From Dryomyza anilis (lineage: Eukaryota; Arthropoda; Insecta; Diptera; Dryomyzidae), in contig OX638136.1 in NCBI GenBank assembly GCA_951804985.1, positions 1,262,501 to 1,326,500 on the forward strand: a stretch of 64,000 bases of DNA. The letters are read 5' to 3'. A model generated the notes under the pieces. That model had not been told where the DNA came from, did no database searches, and saw only the letters and a list, made by a program, of their open reading frames with translations. A program made the translations under genes and the position numbers. Shown one piece after another: positions 26,548 through 59,354 of this stretch (position 1 is the stretch's first letter; each line of letters begins with the position of its first letter).

Positions 26548-27345
26548 GTAAATAGTGCAAAATATCAAGAATCAGTTTTTGGTGCAAATCATTGCATGGG
26601 TGCATGGCAGTCGTTTGTTTATTGTTTGTGCTTTAAGGTGCATTTAAGGTTTTGTTTTTGTTTTGCGTGTTAAAAGTTGCCATTTTACGAATTTCTTTTT
26701 TTTTTAATTCTTTTAAAATTTTTCTATTTTTTCCTTTTATGATTTAAAAAAAAACAAAAATTGTCATATCCGACCACATATCGCATTAATTCAATTTAAT
26801 TTTATAATAACCATTATAATATTCCTTTTTTTTACTAATTATAGAAACGATATTTTTTTTAAGATGACCAAAATCAAATTACAATAAATGTCCATTACGA
26901 AGTAATGCACTTTATTTTGTATGTATAAGAAGTATTTATATTTATTTATATAATAACCATATAGTTTTTTTTTTCTAAAACAATAAAGAATTTGAGTTTG
27001 GTAACCCTTGATTTTCGCAACACCCAAAAACAATGTAATACATTATGAGTTATTAAAAGAAAACAAATATACATTCTCCTTATGATACTCCAACGTTGAA
27101 AGATCTTTCAATGTTCCGAGAGTAAGCGCTGGCCTGTAAATGTTCGCTGTTTGGGTGGGTGGTGAGAGAATTACGTGTGTGTCGCAACATGTATTTGAGA
27201 CTACTTATTCTTATGCAACTTTTCTCATTGTTTTTATATTTTTTTTTCTTTTACCTATTCGATATAAGTATTGCCTTTCTTTTTTTCCAAATTAAGTATG
27301 ATAACGCAGATAAAAATGTACTTTGTCCATTAGTTCTCTGTATTC
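26548..27345 (+). repeat. Repeat family A, copy left of G3 copy A
   Basis: Starts AATAGTGCAAAATATCAAG and ends near AAGTATGATAACGCA. Matches 31163-31440 plus 40553-41010 and 53263-53950. Blocks include GGTGCAAATC.TTGCATGG, GGATTTTCGCAACACCC and CTCCAACGTTGAAAGATC. Because it flanks both sides of G3 copy A and starts AGTGC and ends near GATACT, it may be an LTR, but no polypurine tract or primer site abuts it. Confidence 0.8.
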
Positions 27346-28089: not shown

Positions 28090-28683
28090 TTATTCTGTAT
28101 ACGTCGATTGGTGGTTTAATGAAGTCGGACGTTTGCGTGCACTTGTCTGTGCATTCGCCTGGAAGTTTATTGATTCCGACCACTTGACACAATCTGCTTT
28201 ATACACATTCGGAGTGCCACAGCCGTAACAAAAAAGATTAGGATCGGCCAAGCATTCTTGATGACTATGCCCATGTTTACTACAGTTCCAGCATATCAAT
28301 GATACTGCTGCAACATTTTCTTCGTTTACATACCCATATAAACTTTCATATTAAGCTAATTTTTCCTTATTAGTATCTAATTTGGATACGTGCCTACGAG
28401 TTGGCAATGGGTTTGGAAAATTTCTTTTCAAATCTTTTCGCGTTTTCTGCAGATATCGCGCAAGTGAGAAATTGAATATATTTGCAAATTAAGAATTTCA
28501 TGTTGTATTTCCCGAAGGAGGTTTCTTCGCAGTAGTTTCCGGCAATGGCTCATCAAGCCGATCAGGGAGCTTTAGAATAGACTCGTAAAACATATCAAAA
28601 CTTTCACCAATTTTTATTTACGATCCCTTATCATCACACGGAAATCTACGTCCGTCCTTGAATCTCGGTACTGACGTCTCAAA
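28090..28683 (-). pseudogene. Gag capsid end and double zinc knuckle, G3 copy A
   Basis: Two CCHC-type knuckles in tandem, CWNCSKHGHSHQEC and CYGCGTPNVYKADC (the second lacks the canonical His spacing), at 28200-28299. Upstream, in broken frames (28400-28683), is the capsid end (DSRTDVDFR, ESFDMFYESIL, LPDRLDEPLP). The SINE at 28684 cuts the capsid. Confidence 0.8.
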
Positions 28684-29144: not shown

Positions 29145-29990
29145 TTAACCCCCAGTAAACCAAACTTTCCAGTTGAATATTATTTGACCAACTTTTTGAG
29201 TCCTAAATGAAGAGACACCCGCAGAATTGGCACCACTAATAGCTGGTGAATTTTGAGAAAATCTGTTAATATCATTTTGAACGTTTAAATTAGATGGCAA
29301 GCCAAGGCGTTGTTCTAATGATCGCTGTTCGACAGCTGGTAATGAAGGGATTTGTTGCGGAGATCCCACGAAAGAAAAATTATTTGGTTGTAGTTCTCGT
29401 TGTTGTTGTTCTTGTTCACCAATTGCTTGGGATACATTACCCACAGTCATTTGATTAAAACCCGCTGCAATTGTAGTCTCAATTAAACGACCTAATTGTT
29501 GGCTAAGTGAGGACAGCATTTCTGCTTGTTGTGAACCTACTGCAGGTGTAACTAAGTTCCTAATGTTGGCTCTCTGGTCTGCAGAAAAATGACTTAAGGA
29601 GGTCTCGGATCTTGATTGGTTATTGTTGTATTGGCAGCAGTAGCCGGTTGCTGTAACTACATTAGTTACCGATACAACTGCACTACTTGCATTGGCTCTC
29701 TGAATTTGTGCTCTTGTGCCATAACCATGTTCAGAAGGTTTTGTGGGGGTTTGTGGTTGTTGACCCACAAGCGAAGCACCCGCCCTGCTTTCAGAAATAC
29801 ACTGCATTCCACAAACTTGACATGTAGTGTTGCTAGATAAATGTTTGGTAATGCAGGTCTTGTGAAACATGTGTCCACATACTACTTTAACCAATTAAGC
29901 GCGTTCACTTATCACGTTTAGACAAATACAACATATTGTTGCACTAGCCTCCGAGGCAGATAAATCTTCGGTACTACGTCTGAGTGACAT
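29145..29990 (-). pseudogene. RING-H2 finger fused to Gag N-terminus, G3 copy A
   Basis: The start ATG is at 29988-29990 (MSLRRSTEDLSASEASATI). Residues ~20-65 give C-x2-C (CCIC), then C-x-H-x2-H-x2-C (CGHMFHKTC), then C-x2-C (CQVC): a complete RING-H2 set with spacings 2-14-1-2-2-10-2. A TAA at 29895-29897 falls in the first loop. The rest (to ~260) is Gln/Asn/Ser-rich with LGRLIETTIAAGF and GLPSNLNVQNDINRFSQ, leading to the capsid region. RING-H2 proteins are usually ubiquitin E3 ligases, but that role here is inferred. Confidence 0.75.
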
Positions 29991-31162: not shown

Positions 31163-31440
31163 AGTGCAAAATATCAAGAATCAGTTTTTGGTGCAAATCG
31201 TTGCATGGGTGCATGACAGTCGTTTGTTTATGGTTTGTGCTTTAAGGTGCATTTAATGTTTTGTTTTAGCTTTGCGTGTTAAGAGTTGCTATTTTACGAA
31301 ATTCTTTTTTTAATTATTTTAAAATTTTTGTATTATTTTACAAAAACAAAAATTGTCATTATAATATTTATTTTTTTTACTAATTATAGAAACGATAATT
31401 TTTTTAAGATTCCAAAATCAAATTACAATAAATTTCCATT
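31163..31440 (+). repeat. Repeat family A, first part (interrupted by G2)
   Basis: Continues at 40553 after the G2 insertion. It ends AAATTTCCATT, the CATT being the 4-bp target duplication of G2. Confidence 0.82.
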
Positions 31441-32285
31441 TGTAACGGTCCGGTTGCCGGGTTCAGAGCTGGGATAGCTTAGCGGAAAGTCCAGAAGTCC
31501 GTGCATTACAAACATTTACATTTGCAGAGGAAACCCTCAGCTCCAAATAAATACGCCGTACGCAAAGTGGTTATAATTATTCAATTTATCTTTATTAAAT
31601 TCATTCTAATATATTATGAGGCAGCGTCCTGCCTGATGCACTCGACGCTCCTCGCTGAAATATATTGTTTGCAACCAGACTTACTCGATGCAATGTGTTT
31701 TCAGGAACTGATTGATATGTCCTGGGTCCATAAACAGGACCGAAACTCTAGTCAGTTAGGTCACGTTTGGTCCACGTGTCCCCCGATGCGGTTTAATTAA
31801 AAACACACCCAGGGCAACACGCTTGGCAAAGTCCCCGATACGGTTTAATTGAAAACACGCCCAGGGCAACACGCTTGGCAAAGTCCCCCGATACGGTTTA
31901 ATTAAAAACACACCCAGGGTAACGATGCAGCTACTTATTCAGTCACGAAGTCAGGAACAGAGAGAGTGATTTTCCCTCGTGCAATGCCTTTTATAAGCCA
32001 TTGGTTGGTGAGTGTGTATTCGTAACACTTGCCGCTTCGCTCACTGGTGCGCCTGCCTTGGTGACACAATTGTATGTTCTGGCCGTTGGTGTCTGCTAAT
32101 TCTCACACCAGTGAGAGTGTAAGAGTGACACTTTGTAGTCAAGCTCACTGGTGAGCTTTAGCTCGTTGGTGTTAATTCGATGCTCTGCGCCGTGTTTGGT
32201 TCGACGGCGTTGACGTCGAAGCCGGTTGCTTGGATCCGCCGTGAATGTGCGGTCGCCATTTGACGCTTAAAATGGTACCGTCACA
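31441..32285 (-). repeat. 3' LTR of G2
   Basis: Plus reading TGTAACGGTCCGG to GGTACCGTCACA. It contains tandem ~60-bp GGGCAACACGCTTGGCAAAG units. Compared with the other LTR it lacks ~100 bp (between GCCATT and GTGAGTGTG) and has an extra stretch near 31745-31775. Confidence 0.92.
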
Positions 32286-32295
32286 CCCCCCCTTT
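32286..32295 (-). other. Polypurine tract of G2
   Basis: Minus-strand AAAGGGGGGG directly before the LTR start TGTGACGGTACC. Confidence 0.8.
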
Positions 32296-32319
32296 ACTTC
32301 GGTTGAGAAAGGAGGTAGC

Positions 32320-33551
32320 CTAGCTCAGTTCAATGACGGTCGCCTCTCCCGAGCCATTGATCCTGATGCGGTATCGACGTCCTTTTATCCGACGGATGGT
32401 GGACATTGGTTTGTGGTCTCGCCGGTTTTGACTAACGGCCCTAACCACTGCCAATACTTCTGGTGGTACCTCGTCACTTGCCGCTCTATCAGTCGTACCA
32501 TCGGATGGGTGGTCCTCGCTCGCATCCGTCTGTGAAGTGCTGGGTCTGGTATTACTGCTTCTTGCCTCGTCATGGCCTGTGCTGCGGCTGCTACTGCTGC
32601 TGCTACCGCTGCTACTACCGCTGCTACTACTGCTGCTGCTACTGTCGCTGCTGCTGCTACTGTCGCTGCTGCTGCTACGGCTACTACTACTGTGGTTGGT
32701 AGGCCCATATGCCTTTCGTGCAGCCGCTGTACACCACGGTTTGGTCGTTGTCTTCGGTGGGGATGTAACCGTCGGTGATGACTGTCGTGGTGTGGTTATA
32801 GCCACCTGTAGTGCCCCTGGTTCCACTTCCTCGTATGGCGCGGTCGCTACAGCCGTCCGCTGTGAGACACTCTGCTGGTCTCTCGTTCGTTGTGGGGCGC
32901 TGATTGTCGCGCCAGCCACCTCCTGTTGTGTCGTCGTCGTGGTTGCGTCGCTTCGACGCTTCGTCGGCACAGCCGTCCGCTGTGAGACGCTCTGCTGCTT
33001 CTCCGCTCGTTGTGGTGCGCTGCTCGACGCGCTGGCCACCTCTTGTTGTGTATTTGCAAACACCTCTGCGTCGCGTAGCTGTTGCGCTGGTTCAGCAACC
33101 TCTGGTGCGGCCTTCAAAACCTCCTCTATCTGATTGCCTACAGCCGTCCACTGTGCACTCCTCCAGACATCCTTCCACTTTGGAGCGCCGGTTACCGCAT
33201 CTGCGGCCCTTGGTTGGGTCTTTTCTCCCACTTGCTGCTGCCATGCCCACACAACCGTCCGTTGTGTGACATCTGTCGCCCTGCCAGTGGCGCTCTGTTT
33301 CGCCGTGTGATGGGCACCGCAGTTGCCGCGCTGCTGTAGCCTGAGTCGTCGTCTTTGGAGTGATCTTCTTCGCCGTCGACGCTCTGCTGCGTCACCTGGA
33401 ACATGGTGATGGGCGCAGCTATCTGTCGTGCTGCTGTCGCCTGCGTGGTCATCGTTGTGGGTGCAACGCTCTGTTGCGTCACCTGGAACATGGTGATGGG
33501 CGGAGCTATCTGCCGCGCTGCTGTCGCCTGCGTATTCGTCGTTCTGGCCAC
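32320..33551 (-). pseudogene. Gln/Ser-rich C-terminal tail of the G2 3' ORF
   Basis: Two open stretches, 33192-33551 and 32320-33252, joined by a frameshift. The first contains two ~29-residue repeats (ATAARQIAPPITMFQVTQQS), the second two copies of a TQQEVA..APQR..QQSVSQRTAV unit and a long Ser tract (~residues 190-230), ending RYRIRINGSGEATVIELS just before the polypurine tract. It is in frame with the protease domain across a TAG at 33552-33554. Low-complexity and probably disordered. No enzyme motif. Confidence 0.65.
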
Positions 33552-34517
33552 CTAATCGGTAGCGGGTCGCTGGAACGCCCGCTGCGCTGGCCGCTTCGCC
33601 AGATCAGGCCATACTGGGACCGCTGTCCCCCCTTCGTTTGCCAGAAGACGGATCTGCCGGGCAATGATCCCGCGTTTCGCATCGCCTTCTCTGCTACTGA
33701 ACCACCTGCTTCTGTCCAACGGCGGGTACAGATGGTGTTGCGGGTCTCGTCGCAGACACTCAACGTTCTGTAGCAAGTAGACGCCGCAATCATAAAGATT
33801 CGGCTGCTGCGGGACGCTGACCTCGTAGTAAGGCGTGTTGATTTATGTAAACTCATAGCCTACGTCGCCATCCTTACGTGAAACTGCCGTTAAAAATTCA
33901 CACAACCTCATAGACACGTCTCTCTACGCCTCGGGATAGGCTTGCGTAGAAGAACGTGTCGTCAACATGCATCCGTCGACCTGGAACCGCGTCCTCTGTA
34001 TTCTGCAGCGACCACTGAACCCAGAAATTGAGGATCGTGTCGTTTAGGAAACGCCCGACTGCCAGACTACGATAGTCTCCTACGGTGACGGACACGCCAT
34101 GTCTTCCTTGCGGGTATCTGCATAGGTGATGCGTATCACCTTTGTTGACGGGTCTCGTCACGCTCAGTTCCACTAGCGTTGTGTGTGGCGCCCCTGGTGC
34201 CTGAGTAACCTGGTCCGTCTGCTGCTCAGACCGGAACCGCTTGCATGCCTGCTCCTCTTTGTCCACTCCTGCCTCGTCCTCGTATGGCGCTACCACCGGT
34301 TCTGCTGGTAGGTTGCTCCCTCTACCATACATCGCTGCAGTGCCGCTGTCGTTGGGCGCAATATTGCGCGCAGTTTCTGGCGACTGCTTTCGTTCAAGCC
34401 ACCTGCGTCTTCAGGGCTCAATGGTGGTGGGTCATCAGCATGACGAAGTGTCGCCAACAGTTGAAGACGGTAGTCGCCTGTGTCCTGCTCCATTGCAGTA
34501 ATCCTGCGATGACTCAT
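33552..34517 (-). pseudogene. Ulp1/SENP-type cysteine protease (C48) in the G2 3' ORF
   Basis: The likely start ATG is at 34515-34517 (MSHRRITAMEQD). The N-terminal part shifts frame near 34300-34330. The domain has VGDYRSLAVGRFLNDTILNF and DTFFYASLS, the substrate-binding start of Ulp1 proteases. After a gap it has VPQQPNLYDCGVYLLQNVE (oxyanion Gln and catalytic Cys, Cys codon at 33786-33788), then WF and KRGIIARQIRLL, as in SENP6/7 (Ulp2-type) ends. The stretch holding the catalytic His and Asp is deleted around 33840-33900, so this copy is inactive. Family members remove SUMO or related modifiers. The retrotransposon role is unknown. Confidence 0.78.
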
Positions 34518-35034
34518 TCTCAGATGTTTTTTTTTTATTTGATAAAACTTAACAGCTCCAAAAATCTTTTACTTTTATTTTATTTGCGCGGTGCACGTGC
34601 GTATGCGTTGACTATCGCGTAACTAATGTCGATCCTCGTCGTGTGTTGGTTTCCTCGTGCCCCACACTTGTTGCTTCGCGAATTGCCGCGCCAAATTCCT
34701 CGAATTGTAAATTTGATTTTTTTAGCGACTGTCGACTACGCACGAACCTCACACACACCAATGTTTTCGTGTTTGTGTGTGCGCATCGTGTTTCGCTCTC
34801 TGAGAGCGCTTGTGCGTCACCGTGGGCCGCTTTGGTTATTCGCGCTCTCCGTGCGAGGCTCTCTTTCTGTTTGCACATACCGGAGGTGGGTTTTTGTATT
34901 CGTACCGCGAGTGTAAATGCGCTCTTGCAATGATTTTTGTTATTTCGCTGCATGCGTAGTGGGTTTGTTGTTGCCATTTTCGGTGCTCGTGTCATTCCAC
35001 GTATTTCCTGTCTTCTGTGCCCCTTGGCGTATAA
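34518..35034. other. Spacer between integrase/repeat region and the protease ORF of G2
   Basis: No domain recognised. A 127-codon minus-strand frame (34612-34995) is Arg/Thr-rich and unlike any family I know. An A-rich stretch precedes the protease-ORF start, so this may be an untranslated leader or promoter for a separate transcript. Confidence 0.4.
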
Positions 35035-35450
35035 ATTTCACGCGATTATTCTCCATCGAGCGTTGATTTTGTGCGCGACACGAATTCTATTCCACGCGAT
35101 CATGTGATTTATGATGCATCGAGCGTTGATTTTGATCGCGACCTGCATGTAAATGTTTGCGATTAAGCTCCATCGATCGTTGGTTTAGTCCGCGACCCGC
35201 ATGTAATTTCACGCGATCATGTTCCCTCGATCGTTGGTTTTGTGCGCGACCCGCATGTAATTTCACGCAATCATGTAATTTCACGCGATCATGCTCCATC
35301 GAGCGTTTATTTTGATCGCGACCTCCATGTAAATGTTTGCGATCAAGCCCTATCGGTCGTTGGTTTTGTGCGTGACCCGCATGTAATTTCACGCGATCAT
35401 GTTCCCCCGATCGTTGGTTTTGTGCGCGACCCGAATGCGTCTGCGCCTCA
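35035..35450 (-). repeat. 54-bp minisatellite in G2, in-frame (18 codons)
   Basis: About seven units of ~54 bp plus a partial one, each with ATTTCACGCGATCATG, CATCGAGCGTTG and GCGACCTGCATGT variants. Unit length divides by three, so a minus-strand frame (35087-35392) stays open and gives basic, His-rich repeats such as KLHAGRAQNQRSREHDRV. The plus strand is also open, so coding is not proven. It sits after the integrase. Confidence 0.85.
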
Positions 35451-35509
35451 GCGCCTGGGCCTATTGTGACCTCGTCATAAAGTGCCTTCGGGAGTCGTGG
35501 CTCCCGTCC

Positions 35510-36418
35510 TTAAGTCAAATATGCCGGACTGTAGCCTGTAGTCTCCGACACACTTGTATTAATTGCCAACGCAATTTCTGGCAACTGCTCGTACCATCGG
35601 TTCTGTCGGTGCCTGCCAACTGTGCTATGATTGTCTTCAGAGTCCTGTTCGCCCTCTCCGTAGGGTTTTCCTGGGGTGTGTACGGAGCTGTGAACTGTTT
35701 CCTCACGCCCATATTTTGAAGAAATCGCCTTGCTGGTGAATTGTGCTGCATTGTCAGCAATGAGTACCTTAGGGACGCCGTATCTCGCCAAAATACGCTC
35801 CCGAAACGCCTTCTGTAAGCTGTCAGCCGTTGCCTTACGTAATGCCACCATTTCGGTCCACTTCGAAGAAACTAACAGCATCGTGTGACCGTGTTTGGAT
35901 CGCGGTAGGGGACCACGATGTGCGAAATCCGCACATAACCAAGACCATGGATCCTGTGCAATTTTCGTTAACATTTTACCCGCAGGTTTTTGTTGTGACG
36001 CCCATGTCTTGCGGACACCCATGTGTCCCGCGGTGGCGTCATCGTGATTTTCGCGCATCAATTGCGCCCGTCGTGGTGTAGGGACGCATAGCTTCCAAGC
36101 TACTCCCTCGCTGTCATCTGAGTGTTGCGGTAGATGCCTGTATAGATTACCATCTTCAATGGCATAGTCGGGGAACTTTTCTGGTTGTTCTCGTTCCTCG
36201 ATTATTCGTCTGTCAGTCCATGGACAACGATCTTCAGCTGGTGCCTCCTCTCCGGTCTTCATCAGCGTTTCCATTGGTTGCCTTGACATTGCGTCAGCCA
36301 CGACATTCAGCTTCCCTTTGCGGTACTGGATGTCGAATGTGTGCTGCTGTAGCTCCAGTGCCCAGCGCGCGATTCGCCCAGAACGGCTCTCAATGGAGTG
36401 CAACCATTTCAGGGACAA
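35510..36418 (-). pseudogene. RNase H end and integrase of G2
   Basis: Residues ~1-50: RNase H end (RIARWALELQQHTFDIQYRK, NVVADAMSRQ). Then the integrase zinc-finger start HDDATAGHMGVRKT, but the segment with the CxxC pair is deleted (it jumps to SQQKPAGKMLTK). The core has WLCADFAHRGPLPRS (first Asp) and VLIADNAAQFTS (second Asp). The Glu-bearing helix (PYTPQENPTERANRTL) is in another frame (35515-35760) after a frameshift. A further small deletion removes residues before SKWTEMVALR. It ends VSETTGYSPAYL. Inactive. Confidence 0.88.
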
Positions 36419-36489
36419 ATGGTCGGTGATGACCAGGAACCGATATCCTTCCAGGTAAGGCCAAAATTTTCTAATTCCCCATACGATGG

Positions 36490-37225
36490 CTATGCACTCC
36501 TTCTCCGTTGGCGAGTAATTTTCTTCTGCCTTGTTGAACCTGCGGCTTGCGTATGCAATGACACGCTCCAGGCCATCAATGTTTGCGTCAGCACTGCTCC
36601 TAATCCGTAGTTGCTGACGTCCGTCTGCAGCGTGAACTTTTTAGTAAAGTCTGGGCAACCCAGCACTGGTGCCTCAGTTTGCATAACCTTTAACTGATAA
36701 AACGGCATCTGATTTTCATCTGACCAACTGAAATGCTTCCCCTTTTTCAGCAGTTTGGTCAGCGGTTGCACAACATCTGAAAATTCTGGTACAAACCTCC
36801 GGTACCATGAGGCGATGCCCAGGCATTGGCGTTGGTCGGTGGTCGTAACTCCTGAATGGCAGCAATCTTGTCCGGGTCCGTATGGATACATTGGTTGCTC
36901 ACCATATGCCCAAGATACCTGATCTCCCGCTTACAAAAATCGCATTTTTATATATTGAGTTGCAGCTTGGACCGTCTCAGCCGTCTGAAAACTTCCTTGA
37001 GATTCGTCATGTGCTCCTCGAGCGTTGTTCCGGTGACGATGATGTCGTCTAGATAGGCGAACGCGTGCGGCTCCATGTCCGGTCCTATCACTCGTCTAGT
37101 GAGCGCTGAAATGTCGCCGGGGCTGAATGTAGCCCAAAGGGCATCACCCACCCGTTGATAATCGCCTGCATCGCTGGATTCTTCGAAAAATAGCGCTACT
37201 TAAGGGGGGCGATCATCCTTCATTA
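36490..37225 (-). pseudogene. Reverse transcriptase of G2, internally deleted
   Basis: Fragments in three frames: KNPAMQAIIN joins directly to GWVMPFGLHSAPATFQRSLD, so the fingers and the first palm motif with its catalytic Asp are deleted. VIGPDMEPHAFAYLDDIIV (36948-37151) retains the YLDD pair. LGIASWYRRFVPEFSDVVQP and FTLQTDVSNYGLGAVLTQ (36490-36891) are the thumb and RNase H start. It cannot be active. Confidence 0.85.
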
Positions 37226-37815
37226 TTATCTTGTGAGTGGTGAGGTCAGTTGTCCCCCATTACACACAAACTTCCCAAGTTCCTCCTTTAGAAATTGATC
37301 AATTATTTCTTGTTCGCTGCGAGAGTCCGGTCGCACCACTGTGCACACCGGCTGCCGTTCTGGTTGCTGCGCAACTTCTCCCAAGGTGACACTCTGTCCA
37401 CCGCAACTCAAAGTGGCGCCTGCCTCTGTAAAAAATCCATCTCGAGGATGATGTGGTCGACCACTGTGGGTAGCACTAGCAGTGTCAAAGGGCACTCCCT
37501 GTCCCCGAGTCTGCCAATCACTAGTATTTCCTCCTTAACGTGCCTAGTTGCACCATCCGCCATGCTCACCCTGACATCCGTGCTTCTGCAATTAAATGGT
37601 GTACGAATCATCTGAGCGCAGACTCCGCTCACAAAACTCCGTGTTGCGCCTGTGTCGACCGTTGCGACCACCAACTCGTTGTCAATGGCAATTGTTGCCA
37701 CAATACGAGTCGCCTCCTGTTTCAGCGCTACTGCCGGATACGGGGAGCTGTGTTCGGGGCCGTCAGCCTTCGCTACTGGCGGTTCCCCCGGTAGTTTCCC
37801 GAACGTTGTTGACAA
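37226..37815 (-). pseudogene. Aspartic protease and linker of G2
   Basis: The protease is open over 37408-37815: VVATVDTGATRSFVSG (catalytic DTGA), VIGRLGDRECPLTLLVLP and DHIILEMDFLQ. It then shifts frame into the linker (37226-37495; QPVCTVVRPDSRSEQEIIDQF), which leads to RT. The protease core itself is intact. Confidence 0.85.
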
Positions 37816-37859
37816 CTTTCAACAGTGCGAACGCCCCTGCATCCACACTCCCAACAAAA

Positions 37860-39162
37860 TACAATCGCGTCATTACGGCAGTCCGCCTGCAGTTGTCCGT
37901 TGTGTCCGCAACGCCTGCATGCGGTCGTTGGGTTGAAGTCCACCCTGGTGACATCATTCTATCGTCGATTTTGTACCTCTCGTGGTCGTGCTGCGTGATG
38001 TTGCTGCGCGTGCCCCATCCTCTGAATAACGTCGTATTCGTCCGCTAGGTCTACTAGCTCTTCCATCGTGGAGAAGTCGCGACGCCGAATATATAGCTGA
38101 TATTCTTGGCGGCAATTTCTAAAAACTCGATCCAGCTCTGTCCTTCATTCCGATGACATAATCTCTGAACGTCTCCCGCGGCCGTTGTGTCCGTTTGTGG
38201 ATGTCGTCATCGAGATCCTCAAAAAATCGTGGCAGCAGGAAAAACCGTAGAAACTCACTCCACACTCGCCACGGCGAGTAGTTGTTTCTGTACCACGTAA
38301 ATGCTCTCCCCCGCAAGAGATCCGCGTGGGACCCAATTCGTGTGGGACCCAATTCGTGTGGGACCCAATCGCGGTCCACTCCATAGGTCTGAGTCAGCTC
38401 CTCTATGCGCTTGATGAACACCAGCGGGTCGCTGCTGCCATTAAACTTCACTGGCCATTTCCTCATCCGCTCCATTGCAATTTCGTATCTTACTGCCTCT
38501 CCTGCGTGTGCCCCTGGTCCTTGATGGTGGACTGGTGCCGCTCCTGTGGTCTGTGCCCAAGTCTGTCTGTTCGACGGTTGAGGTCCCGCGAACCTGTTAG
38601 CGTCGAATGAAGCCATATGCGCTTGTGGTGACTGTAGTGCCTGCTGCACCTGTGGTTGCGCCCTTTGCGCCTGTGATTGTTCCTGTTGTAATTGCTGTTG
38701 CGCCTGTTGTATAAGTTGCTCCCGTTGTACCTACTGTTGCGCCCTTTGCGACTGTTGCTGCTCCTGTTGTATCAGCTGCTACGACAGCTGCGCCTGCTGT
38801 ACATGTTGTTGTGCCTATTGCTGTTCCTGATGTTTTAGCTGCTGTGCCATTTGTGTAATTTGCGCCAATTGTGCCACTGTCGGTGTTGTAAACTTTGGTG
38901 GCTGTGTACCAGCCATCGAAAATGTGTAGGGTGACGAAGTTCCTACCGACATTAACGGCTCGGTAACGAATGTGGGCAGTGTCCATGTCTGCTCACTAGT
39001 GGTAAAAATAATTTTTGACTCACCCGGAAGTCGCGTTCCTTCGGTCGTACTGAATCCAGCGGGTGGTAGAGTTAGCAACTCCTGGAAACTGCTGGCTGCT
39101 ACCATCGGTAACGGTGAGACGCTCTTGCTGTGTAAGGTCCGCCTTCCGGAGACCTTGACCAT
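37860..39162 (-). pseudogene. Gag of G2
   Basis: Start ATG at 39160-39162 (MVKVSGRRTLHSKS). It then has a Gln-rich stretch with several stops (38650-38830), and the capsid (38119-38649): KWPVKFNGSSDPLVFIKRIE, RGRAFTWYRNN, FLLPRFFEDLDDDI, RETFRDYVIGM. Further on in another frame are DFSTMEELVDLADEYDVI and the knuckle CRRCGHNGQLQADC, where Gln replaces the zinc-binding His. A 16-bp unit is repeated three times at 38325-38372 inside the capsid. Confidence 0.82.
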
Positions 39163-39620
39163 GGTGGTTTATATTTATAATTCTTTTTTTTGTCCACTGC
39201 GCGTTGCTTATTATAGTTTATGTCACTCTTGTATTCTTCACTGTGTTTTTTTTTTCAATTTAGACTGCGGTTTTCAATTTTTTTTCAGGGGATTCTTTTC
39301 TTTATTATTTTTCACTTTTCTCAGGGTATTCTTTTCAATTCACTTTTCTTAGGGGATTTCTTTGTAGTTTATTTTTCCATCAAGCGTGGCTCTTGTTTAA
39401 TGTTCGTTGTTTTACTTGTTTAGGCGATCGTTGGTTTTATTTGTTCATGCGGCGTTCGTTGCTTTACTTGTTTATGTGGTGATCGTTGCTTTATTTATTT
39501 ATGCTGCGTTCGTTTGCTTTACTTATTTTATGCTGCCAACGATGCTCTGCTTACTGTTGTGTCCATCGATGTGGAGTTTATTTGGCGTGCATTTATTTGA
39601 TTTTTGCGTTGCACTGAGGG
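39163..39620. other. 5' leader of G2
   Basis: Between primer site and Gag start. Minus-strand reading is A-rich (T-rich on plus) with diverged GATCGTTGGTTTTA-type repeats. No gene. Confidence 0.55.
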
Positions 39621-39637
39621 TCTCTGCTCGGACGCCA
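39621..39637 (-). other. Primer-binding site of G2
   Basis: Minus-strand TGGCGTCCGAGCAGAGA immediately follows the 5' LTR end (CCGTTACA). It begins with the TGG expected to pair with a tRNA CCA end. The tRNA was not identified. Confidence 0.7.
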
Positions 39638-40552
39638 TGTAACGGTCCGGTTTCTGGGTTCAGAGCTGGGATAGCTTAGCGGGAAGTCCAGAAGTCCGTG
39701 CATTACAAACATTTATATTTGCAGAGGAAACCCTCAGCTCCAAATAAATACGCCGTACGCAAAGTGGTTATAATTATTCAATTTATCTTTATTAAATTCA
39801 TTCTAATATATTATGAGGCATCGTCCTGCCTGATGCACTCGACGCTCCTCACTGTCTCGCTGAAATATGTGTTTGCAACCAGACTTACTCGATGCAATGT
39901 GTTTTCAGGAACTGTTTGATATGTCCTGGGTCCATAAACAGGACGGAAACCCCGATGCGGTTTAATTAAAAACACACCCAGGGCAACACGCTTGGCAAAG
40001 TCCCCCGATACGGATTAATTGAAAACACACCCAGGGCAACACGCTTGGCAAAGTCCCCCGATACGGTTTAATTAAAAACACACCCAGGGTAACGATGCAG
40101 CTACTTATTCAGTCACGAAGTCAGGAACAGAGAGAGTGATTTTCCCTCGTGCAATGCCTTTTATAGGCCATTAGTTGGAGAAGCGCTCGTGCTTTGTTGC
40201 CCAACCGTTGGTGGATTGTTGCCCATGATTCTGTAGCTTTGCTACCTCTGTGTATCGGTGATGCGCTCACCAGTGAGTGTGTATTCGTAACACTTTGCCG
40301 CTTCGCTCACTGGTGCGCCTGTGTTGGTGACACAACTGTATGTTCTGGCCGTTGGTGTCTGCTAATTCTCTCACCAGTGAGAGTGTATGAGTGACACTTT
40401 ATAGCCAAGCTCACTGGTGAGCTTTAGCTCGTTGGTGTAAATTCGATGCTCTGCGCCGTGTTTGGTTCGACGGCGTTGACGTCGAAGCCGGTTGCTTGGA
40501 TCCGCCGTGAATGTGCGGTCACCATTTGACGCCTCAAAATGGTACCGTCACA
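39638..40552 (-). repeat. 5' LTR of G2
   Basis: 915 bp, TGTAACGGTCCGG to GGTACCGTCACA on plus. Same GGGCAACACGCTTGGCAAAG tandem units as the 3' LTR. It contains several CTCACTGGTG/CACCAGTGAG inverted motifs (40250-40430). Confidence 0.92.
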
Positions 40553-41010
40553 CATTTCCATTTATTTTGTATGTATAAGAATTAATTATATTTATTTATA
40601 TATTAACTATATATTTGACCATAGAATTAGATTTTGGTAACTCTGGATTTTCGCAACACCCAAAAAAAAAATGTAATACAATATGAGTTATTAACAGAGA
40701 ACAAACTTACATTCTCCTTATGATGCTCCAACGTTGAAAGATCTTTCAATGTTCCGAAAGTAATCGCTGGCCTATAAATTTTACGCTGTTTGGGTGGGTG
40801 GTGAGAGAGTTTCGTGTGTGTCGCAAAATGTCTCTTGACACAACTTATTCTTTTGCCACTTTTCTCATTGGTTTTATATTTTTTTCTTTTACCATTCGAT
40901 ATATTGCCTTTCTTTTTTTCAAATTAACGCACTCACTTATATTTATTTTTGAAGTATGATAACGCAATAAAAGATACTTTTCTTTGACCCATTCTGGTTA
41001 AATACATTTT
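40553..41010 (+). repeat. Repeat family A, remainder after the G2 insertion
   Basis: Continues 31163-31440. Blocks shared with 26700-27345 and 53530-53890: GGATTTTCGCAACACCC, CTCCAACGTTGAAAGATC, GCTGTTTGGGTGGGTGGTG. The right side also matches 53880-53950 once the DINE at 41011-41702 is skipped. Confidence 0.82.
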
Positions 41011-43450: not shown

Positions 43451-44606
43451 TTACAGCTTGAGCCCAAGTAAACTTCGCATTTGTTTTATTTTATTCGCAT
43501 TCAATGGTTTTATTAAGATGTCAGCTTCCATTATGTCAGTTGGGCAGTATATAAACTTTAAAGTATCTTTTTCTTTTAAATCTTTTATGAAGTGATATTT
43601 AGTTTCAATATGCTTACTTTTTTTGCTTAATTTCTCCGACTGTATTAATTTTAAACAACTTTGATTATCTTCGAAAATTGTTGTTGGCATATTTTCAAAA
43701 ACTTCAAAATCTTTCATTAATCGTCTTAGCCATATTGCTTCTTGAGCTACTTCACTCAAAGATATATACTCAGCTTCGGTTGAAGAGAGTGAGACGCAGT
43801 CTTGTTTTCTGCAGCTCCATGAAATACATGATCCATTATATTTAAATGCAAAACCACTGTTAGATTTCCTATCAATTCGACTTAGTGCCCAATCGGCATC
43901 TGCAAATCCATATAGTCCATTCTTATTGCAGCACTCCAAATTTAGCTTCATAGATTTTGTACCATTCAAATATTTAATTAAACGCTTCAATTCTGTCCAG
44001 TCTCGATACTTACCTTTAAATTTGCTTACCTTTCGACTCAAAATCGACACAGCCGTAGTTATGTCTGGTCTTGTATTGATGCTAAGGTATAATAAACTTC
44101 CAATTAAATGATGATATTTGATATTATCTGGCATATACGTGCTATCATTTTCATCCTTTAAGTATCCAGTATCTATTGGGATTTTTGAATACTTCGCATC
44201 TTCTATTCCAGCATCTTTTATGATTTTGTTAATATAATTTTCTTGACTAATTTTATAATATCCATTACTACCCTTCTCAATTTTGATTCCCAAATAAAAA
44301 TTTACATTTCCGAGATTGGATATTTCAAAATTTTTTCGTAATATTTTTTCAATAAAGATTTGGTTATCTTTATGTTTCGTGGCAACCAGTATATCATCGA
44401 CGTACACTAATATAAAAGTCCACTCACCATTTCTGTGTAATTTTAAAATACATGAGTCAGCCAAACCCTTTTCAAAACCAGCATCAAGAAATTTCATAAT
44501 TAACTTCTCGTTCCAACATCGTGCTGATTGTTTTAGTCCATATATACTTTTTTTGAGCTTGCAAACTGTTCCATTTTGTATTTCGAATCCTACTGGCTGC
44601 TTCATA
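43451..44606 (-). pseudogene. Copia RT C-terminal half and RNase H
   Basis: Open for ~385 codons. RT: IYMKQPVGFE, CKLKKSIYGLKQSARCWN, FILVYVDDILVA (catalytic YVDD), NFYLGIKI. RNase H: GFADADWA (catalytic Asp), SLSSTEAEY (Glu), TIFEDNQS (Asp), KHIETKYHFIKD, ending MRSLLGLKL. This is the best preserved gene of the element. The open frame extends upstream into the solo LTR (to 44650), which would add ~14 LTR-encoded residues. The RT N-terminus lies beyond that insertion. Confidence 0.92.
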
Positions 44607-44611
44607 TATAT

Positions 44612-45124
44612 TGTTACGAAAAGAGATAATTTGCCACACTGTGCAAGCATTCAACAATAATAAATGAGACGCAAGACAATTCAGCGCACTAAGCAATGTG
44701 TTAGAAAGAGACGGAAGATCATTCAGCGTACTGAGCAATGTGCGAGAAAGAGATGGAAGATCAGCACATTAAAACACATGAGTGCGAATGAGATGCCAAT
44801 AGCATGCGTCATTCACGAAACGAGTAGAAGGTTCCCGAAACGTGTCGAACTGATTCATGCAGTATATAAGGGAGCCGCACCTGAGGTACAGCACTTCAGT
44901 AGTGATTGTAAAGTGGTCGAGGGCATCTCGTGTGATAATTGTTAAGTTAAATTGTGGACATGCAGCAGTTGTTAGAATTTGTTATTAGTAAAGTTGTTTA
45001 TTAAAGTGAATTAATAAAGTTAATTGTTATAATTTAAACCAAACATAAGATGGTTTTTATTTTGTACACAATCCAGCGATACGAACTCGTAGAACAGTTT
45101 TCCGTAGACTGCATTTTCGTAACA
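44612..45124 (+). repeat. Solo G1b-type LTR inside copia RT
   Basis: TGTTACGAAAAGAGAT to GCATTTTCGTAACA, 513 bp, with a TATATAAG box and AATAAA. It shares its internal sequence with the LTR piece at 59060-59355 (CATGTCCACAATTTAAC, ATTATCACACGAGATGCC on the opposite strand), so it belongs to the G1b subfamily. Usually left by recombination between two LTRs. No clear target duplication. Confidence 0.92.
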
Positions 45125-45504
45125 AACCGCCTACAGAAAGGCGGTTTTTACATCGTAATGAATAACATCCATATGTGTTTCACCAGCAAGTGTTAAAAAC
45201 ATACGCACGTAGTTTGTCTTACTACTGGGGCAAAAACTTCGTCATAATCGACACCAAATTTTTGGTTAAAACCTTGAGCAACTAATCTTGCTTTGTATTT
45301 TATTATTTCTCCATCTGAATTTGTTTTTATTTTGTACACCCATTTGCAACCAATTGTTTTTCGATCTTCAAGTAGCTTGACCAATTCCCATGTATTGTTG
45401 CTTTTTAAAGACTTTAATTCATCTTGCATAGCAATCATCCATTCATCCTTATCATCTCTCTTGAGCACTTCATTAAAAGACTTAGGTTCGTGTAATTCTT
45501 TCAC
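45125..45504 (-). pseudogene. Copia RT N-terminal part
   Basis: WMIAMQDELKSLKSNNTWELV, KWVYKIKTNSDGEIIKYKAR, LVAQGF.QK.GVDYDEVFAPV (copia RT start), then a frameshift. RMFLTLAGETHMDVIHYDVK with the first catalytic Asp (DVKTAFL) is read in the next frame and ends at a stop next to the solo LTR. The 45505-45819 stretch upstream is degenerate integrase-RT hinge. Confidence 0.88.
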
Positions 45505-45819
45505 AATGTTAGCTTGGTATCTGGATGGTTTACTTAGTACCTTTCGTACTTCTTTCTGATCTTCTCAGATGCTGCGCTTGATCCACATTTAAATTTTGAA
45601 TTACACCAATATCAACTTCTGAACTAATACCAATGTCAACTCTTCCTGATCAAAATTTTCTTTCGGTGCAAATATATCAATATAAATTTCATTTGAATTT
45701 TTATTAAAAAATTGTGTATCATTACAATTAATATTAGATGTAATAATCTTATAATCTCTACTATTTATAATTCTATTTGTATTTTTATTTAAAAAAAATT
45801 AGGTGTTGTGCTTTTGCAT

Positions 45820-46722
45820 CTAGTTTCTTTCTTCTTTCTTTGGTATGTGCACTAAAGCTTCCGATCCGAAAATTTCAAAATTTTGTAATTTAGATTCTTT
45901 TCCTTCCCAAACTTCAACAGGAATTTTCTGGGTCGACCGGGTTAGTATATGATTTTGAATGAATGTTGCGGTTACCACTGCTTCTCCCCAAAAAGGTTTC
46001 TCCATTCCCGCGTCGATTAACATTCACCTTACCATTTCAACAAGATACCTGTTTCGCCTTTCTGCAACTCCATTTTGTTGCGTATGTACGGTTCTGTAAA
46101 CTGCTGTTGTATACCACGCTCCATGCAGAAATTTCCCACATCCGTACTAACATCCACGATCAGATCTAAGTATTTTTGGATATTTGTCGAATTTTGTTTT
46201 AACCATTTCAAAAAATTCTTTTATTTTAACACAAACTTCAGATTTTTGTTTAAGCAAGTATATTTTTGTATACTTACTTAAATCATTTTTGAAGGTAAGA
46301 AAGTATCTGCATCCTCCAGGAGTCGCAACATCCATTGGACGACATATATCACTATGTATGATGTCAAGTAGTGCAGTTGATTGCTGACTTGCCTCTTTGG
46401 GAAAACTATTCCGCGATAGCTTTCCTTTGATGCATGTTTGACATATGTCGCTGCAGTTGCATTTCTTCACACTTAAACCCTCCGAATTTTTATCTTTTAA
46501 AAATTTCTTTACGCACTCAATATCACGATGGCCAAGTCGTCTATGCCAGTCGTGTATGCACTTTGTTTGACTAACCATCATTGCTGTGTCCTCAAAACTA
46601 CTTTTTGAGTTTAATTTCAACTTGTATAAGTTGACATCTAACTCAGCTGTGGCCAAAACTTCTTTATTATCAAATATTTGACAAACTTTGTTGCAAAAAA
46701 CTACTCGCAAACCCTTTTCTGC
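45820..46722 (-). pseudogene. Copia GAG-pre-integrase and integrase
   Basis: 46147-46710: CIHDWHRRLGHRDIECVKKF (zinc-finger His pair), CQTCIKGKLSR (Cys pair), IIHSDICRPM (first catalytic Asp), KILRSDRGC (second Asp). A frameshift follows. The Glu-bearing NGVAERRNRY is read in another frame (~46060). 45820-46023: GMEKPFWGEAVVTATFIQNH, FEIFGSEALVHIP, the end of the core. Inserts cDNA when intact. Here it is broken into at least three frames. Confidence 0.9.
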
Positions 46723-47400
46723 TCACTTCCTGACCGATAAAAGATTGCTTTCGATGCTTGGAACATATAACACATCTTGTACCGTAATTGATACAGTTTG
46801 CCCTTTTTCATTAATTACAAGTAGCTTACCGTTCCCCTTATCATAAGCCTTCATTTCAAAACCATTTGCCGCAGTAATTTTATTGTAACATTTCTCATCC
46901 AACGTGATGAAAAAATCTCTCCGATTGCATATGTGACTCGTAGCACCAGAGTACACATACCAATCGTATTCGCTATTCATACCTGCAGACCACAAACACT
47001 TCTCGTCGTTTCCGTGTACGTACTCAGCTACAACAAGATTTGATTGTGCCTTTTTCTTCAAATAATTTTGATAGAATTTGCAATCCTTGATAGAATTTGC
47101 AATCCTTGCGGACGTGACCTGGTTTTTGACAATAAAAACATACCATTCGTCCTGAATGTTGAATGTTGTCAAAATGTTTGCCCTGGCCATTCTTAATCTT
47201 GAATGCTGATGCTCCATTATTTGATGTTGCTGATTTTTGCGAACTCTTCTATGTTCTTCTAATAGTTTTGCTTTTACTATCTTCAGTGATGGTACGCCAT
47301 CACTTCTTGCTTCCAAGGTTGTTACCAGAACATCATAGGATGCTGGCAAACTTCTCAAAATCATCGCGACTTCCCACTTCTCACTAAGTTTTTCACCCAT
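46723..47400 (-). pseudogene. Copia Gag C-terminus and protease
   Basis: Gag end: MILRSLPASYDVLVTTLEAR, LKIVKAKLLEEHRR. The zinc knuckle CFYCQKPGHVRKDC is present but in the +1 frame, between an upstream indel and a 19-bp duplication (47079-47116) that returns the frame. Protease: YDWYVYSGATSHICN, where copia family members have Asp-Ser-Gly; the catalytic Asp is Tyr here. VPSIESNLLSV follows. Inactive protease. Confidence 0.88.
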
Positions 47401-47469
47401 ACATGAAGATTTTTGATTTCGTGCTGCATCTCGTTCATATGAGACTCCATATCACCAGTCTCCTGCATT

Positions 47470-47817
47470 TTATTGCATTTTACATATCTTCTTCATGATA
47501 AAAACGCATTCGCAGAAAGAGTGATACTCGAAATGATCTTGGATGAGTTGCCATGTTTGCTTTGCGGTTGTTGCATCTTCGATGAGGTAGAAAAGGTCAT
47601 CATCTATCATCAAATATATAGTTGCTCTCGCAGTCTCATCTTTGCGCTTCCATTTATAATCAGGAGTAGCCGGAACTTCGTCTCGAACTGTGTACCATGT
47701 GTCTTCCTTTATCAGCACGCATTCAGCTTTTTTCTTCCAAATTTCGAAGTTGTTGCGGTTTAATTTTTCAAACGATGCTTTAATATCTTGATTCGCAATT
47801 GTATTCGTACGGCCCAT
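47470..47817 (-). pseudogene. Copia Gag N-terminus
   Basis: Starts at the only upstream ATG (47815-47817): MGRTNTIANQDIKASFEKLN, then RNNFEIWKKKAECVL, DYKWKRKDETARATIYLMID, AKQTWQLIQDHFE (copia Gag fold, UBN2 type). A frameshift near 47470-47490 separates it from the next part (47400 down). The start codon lies inside the primer-binding site. Confidence 0.85.
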
Positions 47818-47821
47818 AACC
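47811..47821 (-). other. Copia primer-binding site
   Basis: Minus-strand GGTTATGGGCC, complementary to GGCCCATAACC, the anticodon-loop region (CAT) of initiator tRNA-Met. Copia elements prime from an internal initiator-tRNA fragment. It abuts the 5' LTR. Confidence 0.85.
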
Positions 47822-53262: not shown

Positions 53263-53950
53263 AAATATCAAGAATCAGTTTTTGGTGCAAATCGTTGCAT
53301 GGGTGCATGACAGTCGTTTGTTTATGGTTTGTGCTTTAAGGTGCATTTAATGTTTTGTTTTAGCTTTGCGTGTTAAGAGTTGCTATTTTACGGAATTCTT
53401 TTTTTAATTATTTTAATTTTTTTTTTTATTATTTTACAAAAACAAAAATTGTCATTATAATATTTATTTTTTTACTATTTATAGAAACGATAATTTTTTT
53501 AAGATTTCCAAAATCAAATTACAATAAATTTCCATTAAGAAGTAATGCACTTTATTTTATATGTATAAGAATTAATTATATTTATATATTAACCATATAT
53601 ATGACCATAGAATTTAATTTTGGTAACCCTGGATTTTCGCAACACCCAAAAACAATGTAATACAATATATGTTACGCTGTTTGGGTAGGTGGTGAGATAA
53701 TTTCGTGTGACACACGAGATCTTGAGACAACTTATTCTTTTGCAACTTTTCTCATTGGTTTTATACTTTTTTTCTTCTGCCGATTCGATATATTGCCTTT
53801 CTTTTTTTTCAAATTAACGCACTCATTTATATTTATTTTTGGAGTATGATAACGCAATAAAAGATACTTTTCTTTAACCCATTCTGGTCAAATACATTTT
53901 TTTTAAATTTGATGTATGTTGCTACATTTTTTCTTTCAATTAATTTTTAA
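53263..53950 (+). repeat. Repeat family A, copy right of G3 copy B
   Basis: Uninterrupted equivalent of 31163-31440 plus 40553-41010 plus 41703-41760, lacking both the G2 and DINE insertions. A ~100-bp deletion removes the GTTGAAAGATC block. Confidence 0.85.
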
Positions 53951-57316: not shown

Positions 57317-58156
57317 TCAGTCCACGGAACTTTTTGCGGATACACATTGCTTACATCTGTGAATACAGTAGGCGGCTGACTTCTGATATCCGACCCAATA
57401 GAAATGTTTCCTTACTTCTTCAATCGTTTTATTAATGCTCAAGTGACATCCATTGGTTCCACAATGGCATTTCAGTACTATGGCTTTTATTTTTGTCTTG
57501 GGAACAACAATCAAATTTCGTGCAGATCTGCCATTTTCACTTTCCCACACACGGTACAAACAACCATTTTGTAGCTTCAGGCCTTGCCACTGCGCCCAGT
57601 ATGCCCTGCTTATTGGACTGTTGGATGCTAACTCTTTCCATAATGGTTTTCTTTGTTGTTCCTTGAACTTCCAAATTTTTGCGATGTCGGGGTCCATCTC
57701 TTGAGCATTTCGTATTTGCTCTAGACACCATTGATCATCTGGCACGACACCCAATGAACGAATGTGAATTATGTTCGTTTTTTCATCTTCTCTCCGGCAT
57801 TCTCCGGATTCCATTGTACACACTCGTACCGACACAGTGCCTGAATTTCCAAGATGGCAACTGGTGTTATTCGGACTATCCTCAGATCTCTTTTCTGGTC
57901 TGTATCTCTTTGATGGTTGCACAATTACACATTTTCGTTTTTTACGACAATCGCGTGCCATATGCCCATATTTTCCGCAATTGTAGCATTTACCTTTCAA
58001 TTGCGTGTTTCCGTTGGCCTCATAATGTTCGGATTTAACGCTGGCTTTGGACGCTCTACTTACTCCTTGACATAAATTTTCTCTCTCCTCATCTTGTACA
58101 CGTGTCTCCGTCGCTGGTCGGTACAATGTAGACGCTATCTCCTGCGTAATCGCCAT
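57317..58156 (-). CDS. Gag zinc knuckle joined to integrase zinc finger (fusion ORF, G1b)
   Basis: 279 uninterrupted codons. Residues ~50-75 carry a canonical CCHC knuckle (CYNCGKYGHMARDCRKKRK). ~120-200 read through the spacer that precedes integrase (DPDIAKIWKFKEQQRKPLW). ~225-275 carry the HHCC zinc finger (KCHCGTNGCHLSINK, FYWVGYQK, CIHRCKQC). Everything between Gag and integrase has been deleted in frame. The ATG (MAITQEIAST) lies in an out-of-frame capsid remnant, so initiation is uncertain. It may simply be chance that it stays open. Confidence 0.72.
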   Translation of the reverse strand: MAITQEIASTLYRPATETRVQDEERENLCQGVSRASKASVKSEHYEANGNTQLKGKCYNCGKYGHMARDCRKKRKCVIVQPSKRYRPEKRSEDSPNNTSCHLGNSGTVSVRVCTMESGECRREDEKTNIIHIRSLGVVPDDQWCLEQIRNAQEMDPDIAKIWKFKEQQRKPLWKELASNSPISRAYWAQWQGLKLQNGCLYRVWESENGRSARNLIVVPKTKIKAIVLKCHCGTNGCHLSINKTIEEVRKHFYWVGYQKSAAYCIHRCKQCVSAKSSVD

Positions 58157-58376
58157 ATTTCACTGCCGTATTTTCGTTGCAATGCACCCATAACCGCTGT
58201 ATAACTGTATATGTCACTTTTTGGAACTGTCAGCAAAACTTCGTCTGCTCCTCCTTTAAGCGCCACGATTTGTGCGGCTACGCTGTCCTCATTATTCCAT
58301 CGATTACTTACAGCCGTGGTCTCAAATTGCAGCTTGAAAATGTTTAACGCTGTGGTTCCATCGTAAATTGGCGATT
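58157..58376 (-). pseudogene. Gag capsid remnant, G1b
   Basis: TVPKSDIYSYTAVMGALQRK, RWNNEDSVAAQIVALKGGAD and SPIYDGTTALNIFKLQFETT are readable, matching the first part of the G1 capsid (10244-10936). The second part is deleted at the junction with the fusion ORF. Confidence 0.75.
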
Positions 58377-59059
58377 TTAGCCTCGTACCAGAACATTCTG
58401 TGTATGTCCACTTATCTGTAGTAAACTGACATCTTCTTGTATTTTCTGTAGCTTTTTGTCGAAACCATTTTCCAACTTTTCTAATTTGTCATCAATGTCC
58501 ACTACAATGTCATTTACATGTGCCTCAAGTTCGTTTACTTTGCCATGGAGTGTATTAAAAACTTCCAGAAGCAGCTTAGAATGTTCCTGCATCTGTTGCT
58601 CAATTTTTACTTGCTGTTGGTTTGAATTCTCTAGAAGTTTCTGTTCCATTTTGCAGGAATTTTCTTGTATTTCTCTTCTCAGTTGATTTGAATTTTCTTG
58701 AAGCAGTTTTGAATTTTCTAGAAGTTTCTGTTCCATTTTGCTGGAATTTTCTTGAAGTTCTGTTTTAAGTTTTTCTTCAATCCGGTTCGAATTTTCTAGA
58801 AGCTGTTGTTGTATAGCTCCGAACAACTGGCTCATATCAAAACTTTGGGAATGTATTTTTTGCTCCGTGTCCACATTTTTCGATGACGCTGTTGCAGCTT
58901 CCACTTCAAACTCGTGCTCTGCGAGGTCAATGCCTTGGTTCTCTAATTCTTCTATTAGACGCTTTTGTAGCTCTACTTTCGTACCTACAGTTGGAAGATT
59001 ATGAATCGCCAGCTCCTTCTTTAGCTGGTCGACTTTAAGTTGTTCGAATTTAACCACTG
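58377..59059 (-). pseudogene. Gag N-terminus: SAP domain and coiled coil, G1b
   Basis: VVKFEQLKVDQLKKELAIHN and KVELQKRLIEELENQGID form a SAP-like helix pair with the KVELQKRL signature intact (G1 copy 2 lacks KVE). A ~110-residue coiled coil of LLENSN../LQENSN.. heptads follows, longer than in G1. The ATG of G1 is GTG here, and LTR sequence follows directly upstream, so leader and start are lost. Confidence 0.78.
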
Positions 59060-59354
59060 TTCTACGAGTTCGAATCACTGGATTGTGTACAAAATAAAAA
59101 CACTCTTATGTTTGATTTAAATTATAACAATTAACTTTATTAATTCACTTTACTAATAACAAATTCTAAGAACTGCTGCATGTCCACAATTTAACTTGAC
59201 AATTATCACACGAGATGCCCACGACCACTTTACTATCACTACTAAGTGCTGTACCTCAGTTGCGGCCCCCTTATATACTTCATGAATCAGTTCGACACGT
59301 TTCGACAAGCTTCGACTTGTTTCGAAAACCCTCTACTCGTTTCGTGAATGACGC

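Follow-up and report, generated by a model that had tools for sequence, protein, structure and literature searches.

The Ty3/Gypsy LTR retrotransposon G2 of the fly Dryomyza anilis carries, between integrase and 3' LTR, a third open reading frame (ORF3) with a protease domain of peptidase family C48. We rate slightly better than even the chance that ORF3 is a genuine gene of a Gypsy clade, captured long ago from a SENP6/7-like gene, held under purifying selection between families and encoding a putative nuclear SUMO isopeptidase that raises element expression or integration. The ORF3 copy in the window, by which we mean the whole 64,000-nt stretch of DNA analysed here, is dead, and elsewhere in the genome there are open copies that inserted recently.

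Structure of G2 and of ORF3 in the window

G2 occupies positions 31441-40552 of the window on the minus strand (Table 1). Its LTRs share 788 of 810 aligned bases and also differ in length, in an alignment for which the LTR bounds were taken one base wider than the listed coordinates. The frames for gag, aspartic protease (PR), RT, RNase H and integrase (IN) follow one another in canonical order on the minus strand and are broken in this copy; the RT palm fragment was recognised by eye only, and the gag match is weak. An LTR pair and a short target-site duplication (TSD), as in Ty3/Gypsy elements, were found in the window copy and, with a length of 4 bp, in three young copies of G2's own family (family A), from which the 4-bp rule for the TSD of the window copy was borrowed. 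Among the matches listed, the G2 integrase has at least 100 relatives, many of the named ones from flies, with Drosophila and tephritids among them.

Table 1. Features of G2 in the window, in the direction of the element
Feature	Position	Strand	Evidence or remark
Target-site duplication AATG, 5' side	40553..40556	-	sequence
5' LTR	39638..40552	-	starts TGTGACGG, ends TTACA
gag frame	38122..38730	-	weak Retrotrans_gag match, E 0.14, below cut-off
Aspartic protease frame	37411..37818	-	PF13975, E 1.6e-8
RT/RNase H fragment	36493..36930	-	PF17919, E 3e-12
RNase H end and integrase frame	35513..36640	-	PF17921, E 1.3e-5 (over cut-off); PF00665, E 6e-7 (below cut-off)
Spacer, integrase to ORF3	34518..35509	-	no coding signal on this strand, z -0.6
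Repeats within the spacer	about 35034-35437		
ORF3 (broken)	32320..34517	-	ATG as in intact family A copies, last residues nearly alike
C48, N-terminal part (GRFLND motif, DTFFYASLS)	33928..34113	-	SENP7 match, frame residues 100-161
Deletion site, His and Asp motifs gone	33914..33919	-	about 215 bp, alignment to L016
C48, C-terminal part, catalytic Gln and Cys (VPQQPNLYDCG)	33663..33818	-	PF02902 match; SENP7 match, frame residues 9-60
ORF3 low-complexity tail	32323..33603	-	repeats, Ser-rich part, conserved last residues
3' LTR	31441..32285	-	G-run (polypurine tract) directly before
Target-site duplication AATG, 3' side	31437..31440	-	sequence

A preliminary description of the window had placed C48 motifs at 33552-34517 on the minus strand, in an extra ORF at the env-like position between integrase and 3' LTR. 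Both the motifs and the position were confirmed. The location given for the ORF was correct and its length was not, as the real ORF3 runs from 34517 to 32320 and ends just ahead of the polypurine tract and the 3' LTR. The C-terminal half of the domain (33555-33842) matched the Pfam profile PF02902 at E 2.9e-6, over the cut-off, and SENP7 in the PDB at E 1.1e-5; the N-terminal half (33901-34410) matched SENP7 in the PDB at E 4.5e-5 and gave no match in the Pfam scan. The two halves are colinear, lie in different frames and lack the His/Asp stretch. This part of the catalytic set, whose loss had also been claimed, is missing because about 215 bp have been deleted relative to the intact family A copy L016.

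Coding potential was scored with a codon table trained on G2 gag-pol, with frame switches permitted and the 992-bp spacer as control. The minus strand of 32320-34517 reached a z of 6.9 over dinucleotide shuffles, and none of 300 shuffles attained its score. A count of frame breaks in ORF3 made with this gag-pol-trained table carries little weight, since the spacer, as control, itself showed 1 switch and 3 stops. Several frame breaks, together with the lost segment, mark the window ORF3 as dead by its sequence. As a separate observation, the gag-pol codon score of the spacer was 1.1 on the plus strand, a raw value, versus -58.5 on the element strand, the shuffle z having been computed for the minus strand.

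The insertion site of G2 is an older repeat, further copies of which lie at about 26631-27116 and 53334-53674. This repeat is Gypsy-like, and its frame at 29145-29894 (minus strand) begins with a RING finger, for which PF13639 (E 9.7e-6) fell just below the cut-off and PF00097 just over it; a frame that by eye resembles a zinc knuckle follows (28090-28299 is listed together with 29145-29894). Next to the element with the putative SUMO protease lies, in this repeat, a second one whose domain may belong to the ubiquitin pathway. Nested repeats make up much of the window and include, as judged by eye, a Copia-like element at 43454-47820 and, at 57320-59105, a Gypsy-like one that has gag and a zinc knuckle, both on the minus strand.

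ORF3 copies in the genome and selection on C48

The window comes from contig C7 of an assembly of 656.6 Mb. PF02902 gave at least 129 matches at E <=0.001 (best 150 of 166 candidates scored), of which 81, not counting the host Ulp1-like gene L001, extend from profile position 3 or earlier to 185 or later. Among the same candidates, 64 of these 81 full-span matches are stop-free, and 30 of the 64 lie in open frames of at least 700 residues. The C-terminal half of G2 C48, used as query, had at least 150 genome matches (best 150 of 167 candidates scored). By identity to this half, the C48 copies were grouped into A, to which G2 belongs (about 89-97%), B (about 78-84%), C (about 62%), E (about 50%) and D (about 40-45%).

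The order integrase, C48 ORF, LTR was found at all 12 fetched family A loci. Family B has an upstream integrase match at 4 of 8 loci and a downstream LTR-end match at 7 of 8. The five loci among L029-L040 that match G2 C48 (L032, L036, L037, L039 and L040) all have an upstream integrase match, as do the five loci L041-L045 (partial at L044). Other genomic copies of G2 thus carry the ORF, whose absence from them would, by the preliminary description, have pointed to a private insertion; such an insertion is rejected by the PF02902 matches, the copies of the C-terminal half and the 12 family A loci. In at least eight family A copies (best 40 of 306 candidates), LTR matches 9.7-9.9 kb apart flank ORF3. 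Three copies have LTR identities of 891/892, 892/892 and 898/898 and the TSDs AGCT, ACTA and GTAA; since their LTRs are near-identical and accompanied by 4-bp target duplications, these copies moved recently, and so ORF3 rides inside a recently mobile LTR element.

Several further loci were noted in passing. Three family C copies of ORF3 with 832-residue frames lie within 61 kb (G000 C3:23435490, 23445992 and 23495507), by duplication or repeated insertion. At L032 (2604-4238), integrase sequence continues stop-free into a C48 piece, which may be a recombinant or a fusion. L029, L030, L031, L033, L034 and L035, which have no match to G2 C48, are C48 genes with transposase-like or PHD-like neighbours, as judged by eye. 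Protein database searches with both C48 halves gave nothing within the E-value limit (31 + 1012 word-sharing candidates), and no relative was confirmed among viral contigs scanned with the C-terminal half, the N-terminal half, the integrase and an ORF3 alignment.

ORF3 of families A and B is predicted to encode a protein of about 720-930 residues. In family A it uses the same start site as in G2 and, counted from the first ATG, comprises 858-932 residues in 10 of 11 copies (L010 is cut to 639); the family B frames have 722-868. In both families an N-terminal region containing a basic KR(F/L)R motif precedes C48, after which come a tail of low complexity and a motif at the C-terminus. The KR(F/L)R motif, which we take to resemble a nuclear signal, lies N-terminal of C48 in A, B, C, D and E. 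The motif Y-R-(I/V)-R-(I/V) ends the protein in 11/11 A, 8/8 B and three D loci, the fetched family C stretches stopping short of its position. On the 5' side of ORF3, nine loci were viewed by eye for a shared splice acceptor, and long pyrimidine runs were seen in the D group only.

Single copies matched the C48 profile at E 9.7e-23 (A), 4.1e-21 (B), 5e-16 (C) and 8.7e-22 (D2), so that the profile search upheld the domain in intact copies as well as in the window. At E <=0.1, C48 was the sole Pfam family matched by the four ORF3 frames scanned, and on this content an env-bearing Gypsy element of the errantivirus type was rejected. In the PDB, the family A protein scored 104 bits (E 6.7e-29) against SENP7, as compared to 60 against Ulp2, 58 against SENP2, 54 against SENP1 and 43 against Ulp1; SENP7 was also the top match of D2, at 87 bits, with the next at 52. 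These scores agree with the SENP6/7 type that had been proposed and, together with the domain tree described below, led us to reject Ulp1 as the nearest kin. Every one of the 25 aligned frames (11 A, 8 B, 2 C, 2 D1 and 2 D2) retains the catalytic His, Asp, Gln and Cys and also the Trp that follows His. The aligned copies were picked by score and a mostly open frame, and the count is therefore no census; L020, L032, L039, L040, L045 and L047 were excluded because their frames are broken or recombinant.

Selection on C48 was estimated between families from one A-B pair (L013 and L021, 229 codons), which differ by 99.7 synonymous and 51.3 nonsynonymous changes, giving a dS of 1.08, a dN of 0.107 and a ratio of 0.10. 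Outside C48, dN/dS for this pair was 0.48 in the tail and 0.51 in the N-terminal part. D1 versus D2 gave 0.10-0.14 for C48 at a dS near or above 2, two pairs joining A or B with D gave 0.21 and 0.35, and dS was saturated in the A-C and B-C pairs. The integrase of A versus B had a ratio of 0.03. ORF3 is thus constrained between families, more mildly than integrase, as the A-B ratios of 0.10 and 0.03 indicate. Within families we assumed a neutral nonsynonymous share of 0.75. In family B, nonsynonymous changes make up 8 of the 20 in C48 (P 0.0009). In family A the number is 8 of 13 (P 0.21; pooled ratio 0.61), with no departure from neutrality, which is as expected for very young copies and yet lends no support to selection. 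The purifying selection that was to be looked for is therefore found in the A-B pair, and young family A copies are indistinguishable from neutral.

At four family B loci (L022, L023, L025 and L027), gag and aspartic protease lie upstream of an open ORF3 of 790-868 residues, and matches to RNase H and integrase are absent. L021 and L026 lack RT, RNase H and the beginning of the integrase frame, and an RNase H match was found at 2 of 8 family B loci, L024 and L028. At the four loci, the protease end is followed by 452 bp, of which 268 match the family A post-integrase spacer at 68%; the protease has thus been joined to the post-integrase spacer. The whole junction occurs at 11 or more places (best 40 of 49 candidates scored). 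It is 100% identical over 201 bases at 7 of the 11 places found, and all 11 have a C48 match close by in the same orientation. Among the four loci, 4 of 12 C48 changes are nonsynonymous (P 0.003). However, this value does not prove constraint after the loss of pol, because the C48 of L022 and L023 is identical to that of the integrase-bearing L024. The retention of gag and ORF3 while replication enzymes were dropped gives a hint that it pays to have ORF3 on the same RNA.

Origin of ORF3 and comparison with known systems

All phylogenies were made with a quick tree method. In the domain tree, nine element C48s form one clade (SH-aLRT 100) whose stem is long (0.99 changes per column), with human SENP7 and the host SENP6/7-like gene L046, two open frames taken as exons from the frames alone, outside it. 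An earlier domain tree, in which two very long-branched C48 rows were included and human SENP7 was absent, placed the host SENP6/7-like gene in the same fork as the element groups, with the branching order not separated and all of them together at 96 versus Ulp1. Because that fork was left unseparated, the monophyly of the element C48s is taken from the later tree alone. Seven ORF3-bearing sequences likewise form one clade (SH-aLRT 99) in an integrase tree of 27 rows, the branching of which resembles that of the C48 tree, with D outside and A with B; the remaining 20 rows, for the most part fly sequences or unnamed ones, are pol pieces without flanking context. Since the C48 and integrase trees both unite the elements, the best reading is that the domain was captured once, from a SENP6/7-like gene in an ancestor of the clade, and would since have been inherited with pol. 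The earlier suggestion of a captured host gene fits such an old event, and the two trees speak against a recent one.

ORF3 resembles the Ulp2-type proteases SENP6 and SENP7 (MEROPS C48) in sequence, in the His-Asp-Gln-Cys order and in a WF motif after the catalytic part. It differs in being encoded by an LTR element, in a His-Asp stretch shorter than that of solved SENP7, and in the extra low-complexity tail and C-terminal motif.

Proteases of this family have been described in several other kinds of mobile element. The nematode non-LTR elements NeSL and Utopia, like the G2 clade, are retroelements that code for an Ulp1-type protease, but theirs is described as Ulp1-like and N-terminal on the RT protein (PMC4640811), whereas that of the G2 clade is a separate SENP6/7-type 3' ORF. 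Identity with these elements is rejected by the LTRs, aspartic protease, integrase and separate ORF of the G2 clade. Ginger1 DNA transposons, as excerpted from their description, combine a Gypsy-like integrase with an Ulp1 (or OTU) domain, but are cut-and-paste elements that have no RT or LTR and have Ulp1 fused to the transposase (PMC2836005). Ginger1 was rejected in turn, given the LTRs, PR and RNase H of G2 and an ORF3 that starts about 1 kb past the integrase frame. Passages of two reports place Ulp1-type proteases in Mutator-like elements (PMC2836005, PMC13317346); among these, the plant KI/Vandal elements keep a captured Ulp1 domain, as the G2 clade does, but are DNA transposons with a separate capture, and the function of Ulp1 is stated there as unknown (PMC13317346). 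Oomycete Cryptons also have a C48 peptidase, but are described in the part consulted as tyrosine-recombinase elements (PMC3212892).

Captured enzymes of other kinds are known from LTR elements. The bdelloid elements Vesta and Juno have one as ORF3 in the env position, as in G2, but the enzymes described are a GDSL esterase and a DEDDy exonuclease, not C48, and the main text contains none of the words SUMO, Ulp and OTU (PMC5408684). An orchid Gypsy element reportedly carries an m6A (RNA) demethylase domain rather than C48 (PMC9289625). Searches of an open-access library turned up no LTR retrotransposon that carries a C48 gene. Ulp1-type proteases in mobile elements and captured-enzyme ORF3s in LTR elements are thus known already, and what is new here, as far as that library shows, is C48 in an LTR retrotransposon.

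Possible roles of the ORF3 protease

In the reading that we favour, the ORF3 protein would enter the nucleus, where its C48 domain would most likely act as a working SUMO isopeptidase on poly-SUMO conjugates. SUMO may be stripped from silencing factors, from element chromatin, or from Gag and integrase, and element expression or integration would be raised as a result. It is possible, and put forward here tentatively, that the captured SENP6/7 protease is a counter-silencing factor against SUMO-dependent nuclear piRNA silencing across a whole Gypsy clade whose closest named relatives are from flies, and that the gene is of such use that derivatives which lost RT, RNase H and integrase still retain gag together with the SUMO protease and rely on others to spread.

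In Drosophila ovarian cells, SUMOylation of Panx is required for piRNA-guided silencing, SUMO that ends in its native diglycine is removed by cleavage, and a non-cleavable SUMO fusion rescues silencing by SUMO-site mutant Panx (PMC13195609). Ty1 expression rises in yeast when the SUMO-conjugating enzyme or two ligases are lost, and likewise when Ulp1 is impaired (PMC8585004). The conjugase and ligase losses would fit SUMO as a brake on Ty1. The direction of a SUMO-protease effect is nevertheless not to be assumed, because impaired Ulp1 also raises Ty1.

We think it somewhat unlikely that the protease serves element proteins only, whether by taking SUMO (or ubiquitin) off Gag or integrase or by cleaving the polyprotein, and leaves host silencing untouched. 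The joint retention of gag, protease and ORF3 in pol-less copies fits a Gag-linked role, and the adenovirus protease, a distant relative, processes virion proteins. On the other hand, the elements already have an aspartic protease of their own, and the domain resembles the SENP6/7 class, which is that of poly-SUMO editing and not of polyprotein processing.

Little credence is due to the idea that C48 was retained for binding, with ORF3 as an adaptor for SUMO-bearing chromatin that steers integration or nuclear retention: motifs are conserved beyond the protease domain, but binding alone would not call for the four catalytic residues that all aligned frames keep. The chance is similarly small that ORF3 acts on another ubiquitin-like modifier (NEDD8, ubiquitin or a divergent one) and not on SUMO. 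C48 does include the NEDD8 protease SENP8, and the element clade sits on a long stem; against this, the best PDB match is SENP7, and SENP8 is absent among the 17 PDB matches of the family A protein at E <=0.001, appearing as a weak match (E 0.085-0.087) for the window C-terminal half alone. That ORF3 is a passenger, part of a host gene picked up by one or a few copies and of no use to the element, is already disfavoured and very improbable: the broken window copy, the neutral-looking family A changes and the other mobile-looking C48 genes of the genome (L029 and L033, classed by eye) would suit it, but ORF3 has the same place at every fetched family A locus and in four further groups, the A-B ratio is low, and the C48 and integrase trees have a like order.

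The reading of ORF3 as a putative SUMO isopeptidase bears on a pathway that is central to the transcriptional silencing of transposons in flies, where silencing in ovarian cells turns on whether Panx bears SUMO (PMC13195609). A parallel is seen in plants, in which Vandals that bear Ulp1-domain genes reduce DNA methylation on related copies; such Vandal/KI genes are linked to escape from silencing, the part played by the protease being unknown in the account consulted (PMC13317346). A conserved and apparently complete SUMO protease in LTR copies with identical LTRs makes SUMO-based counter-defence directly testable in animals.
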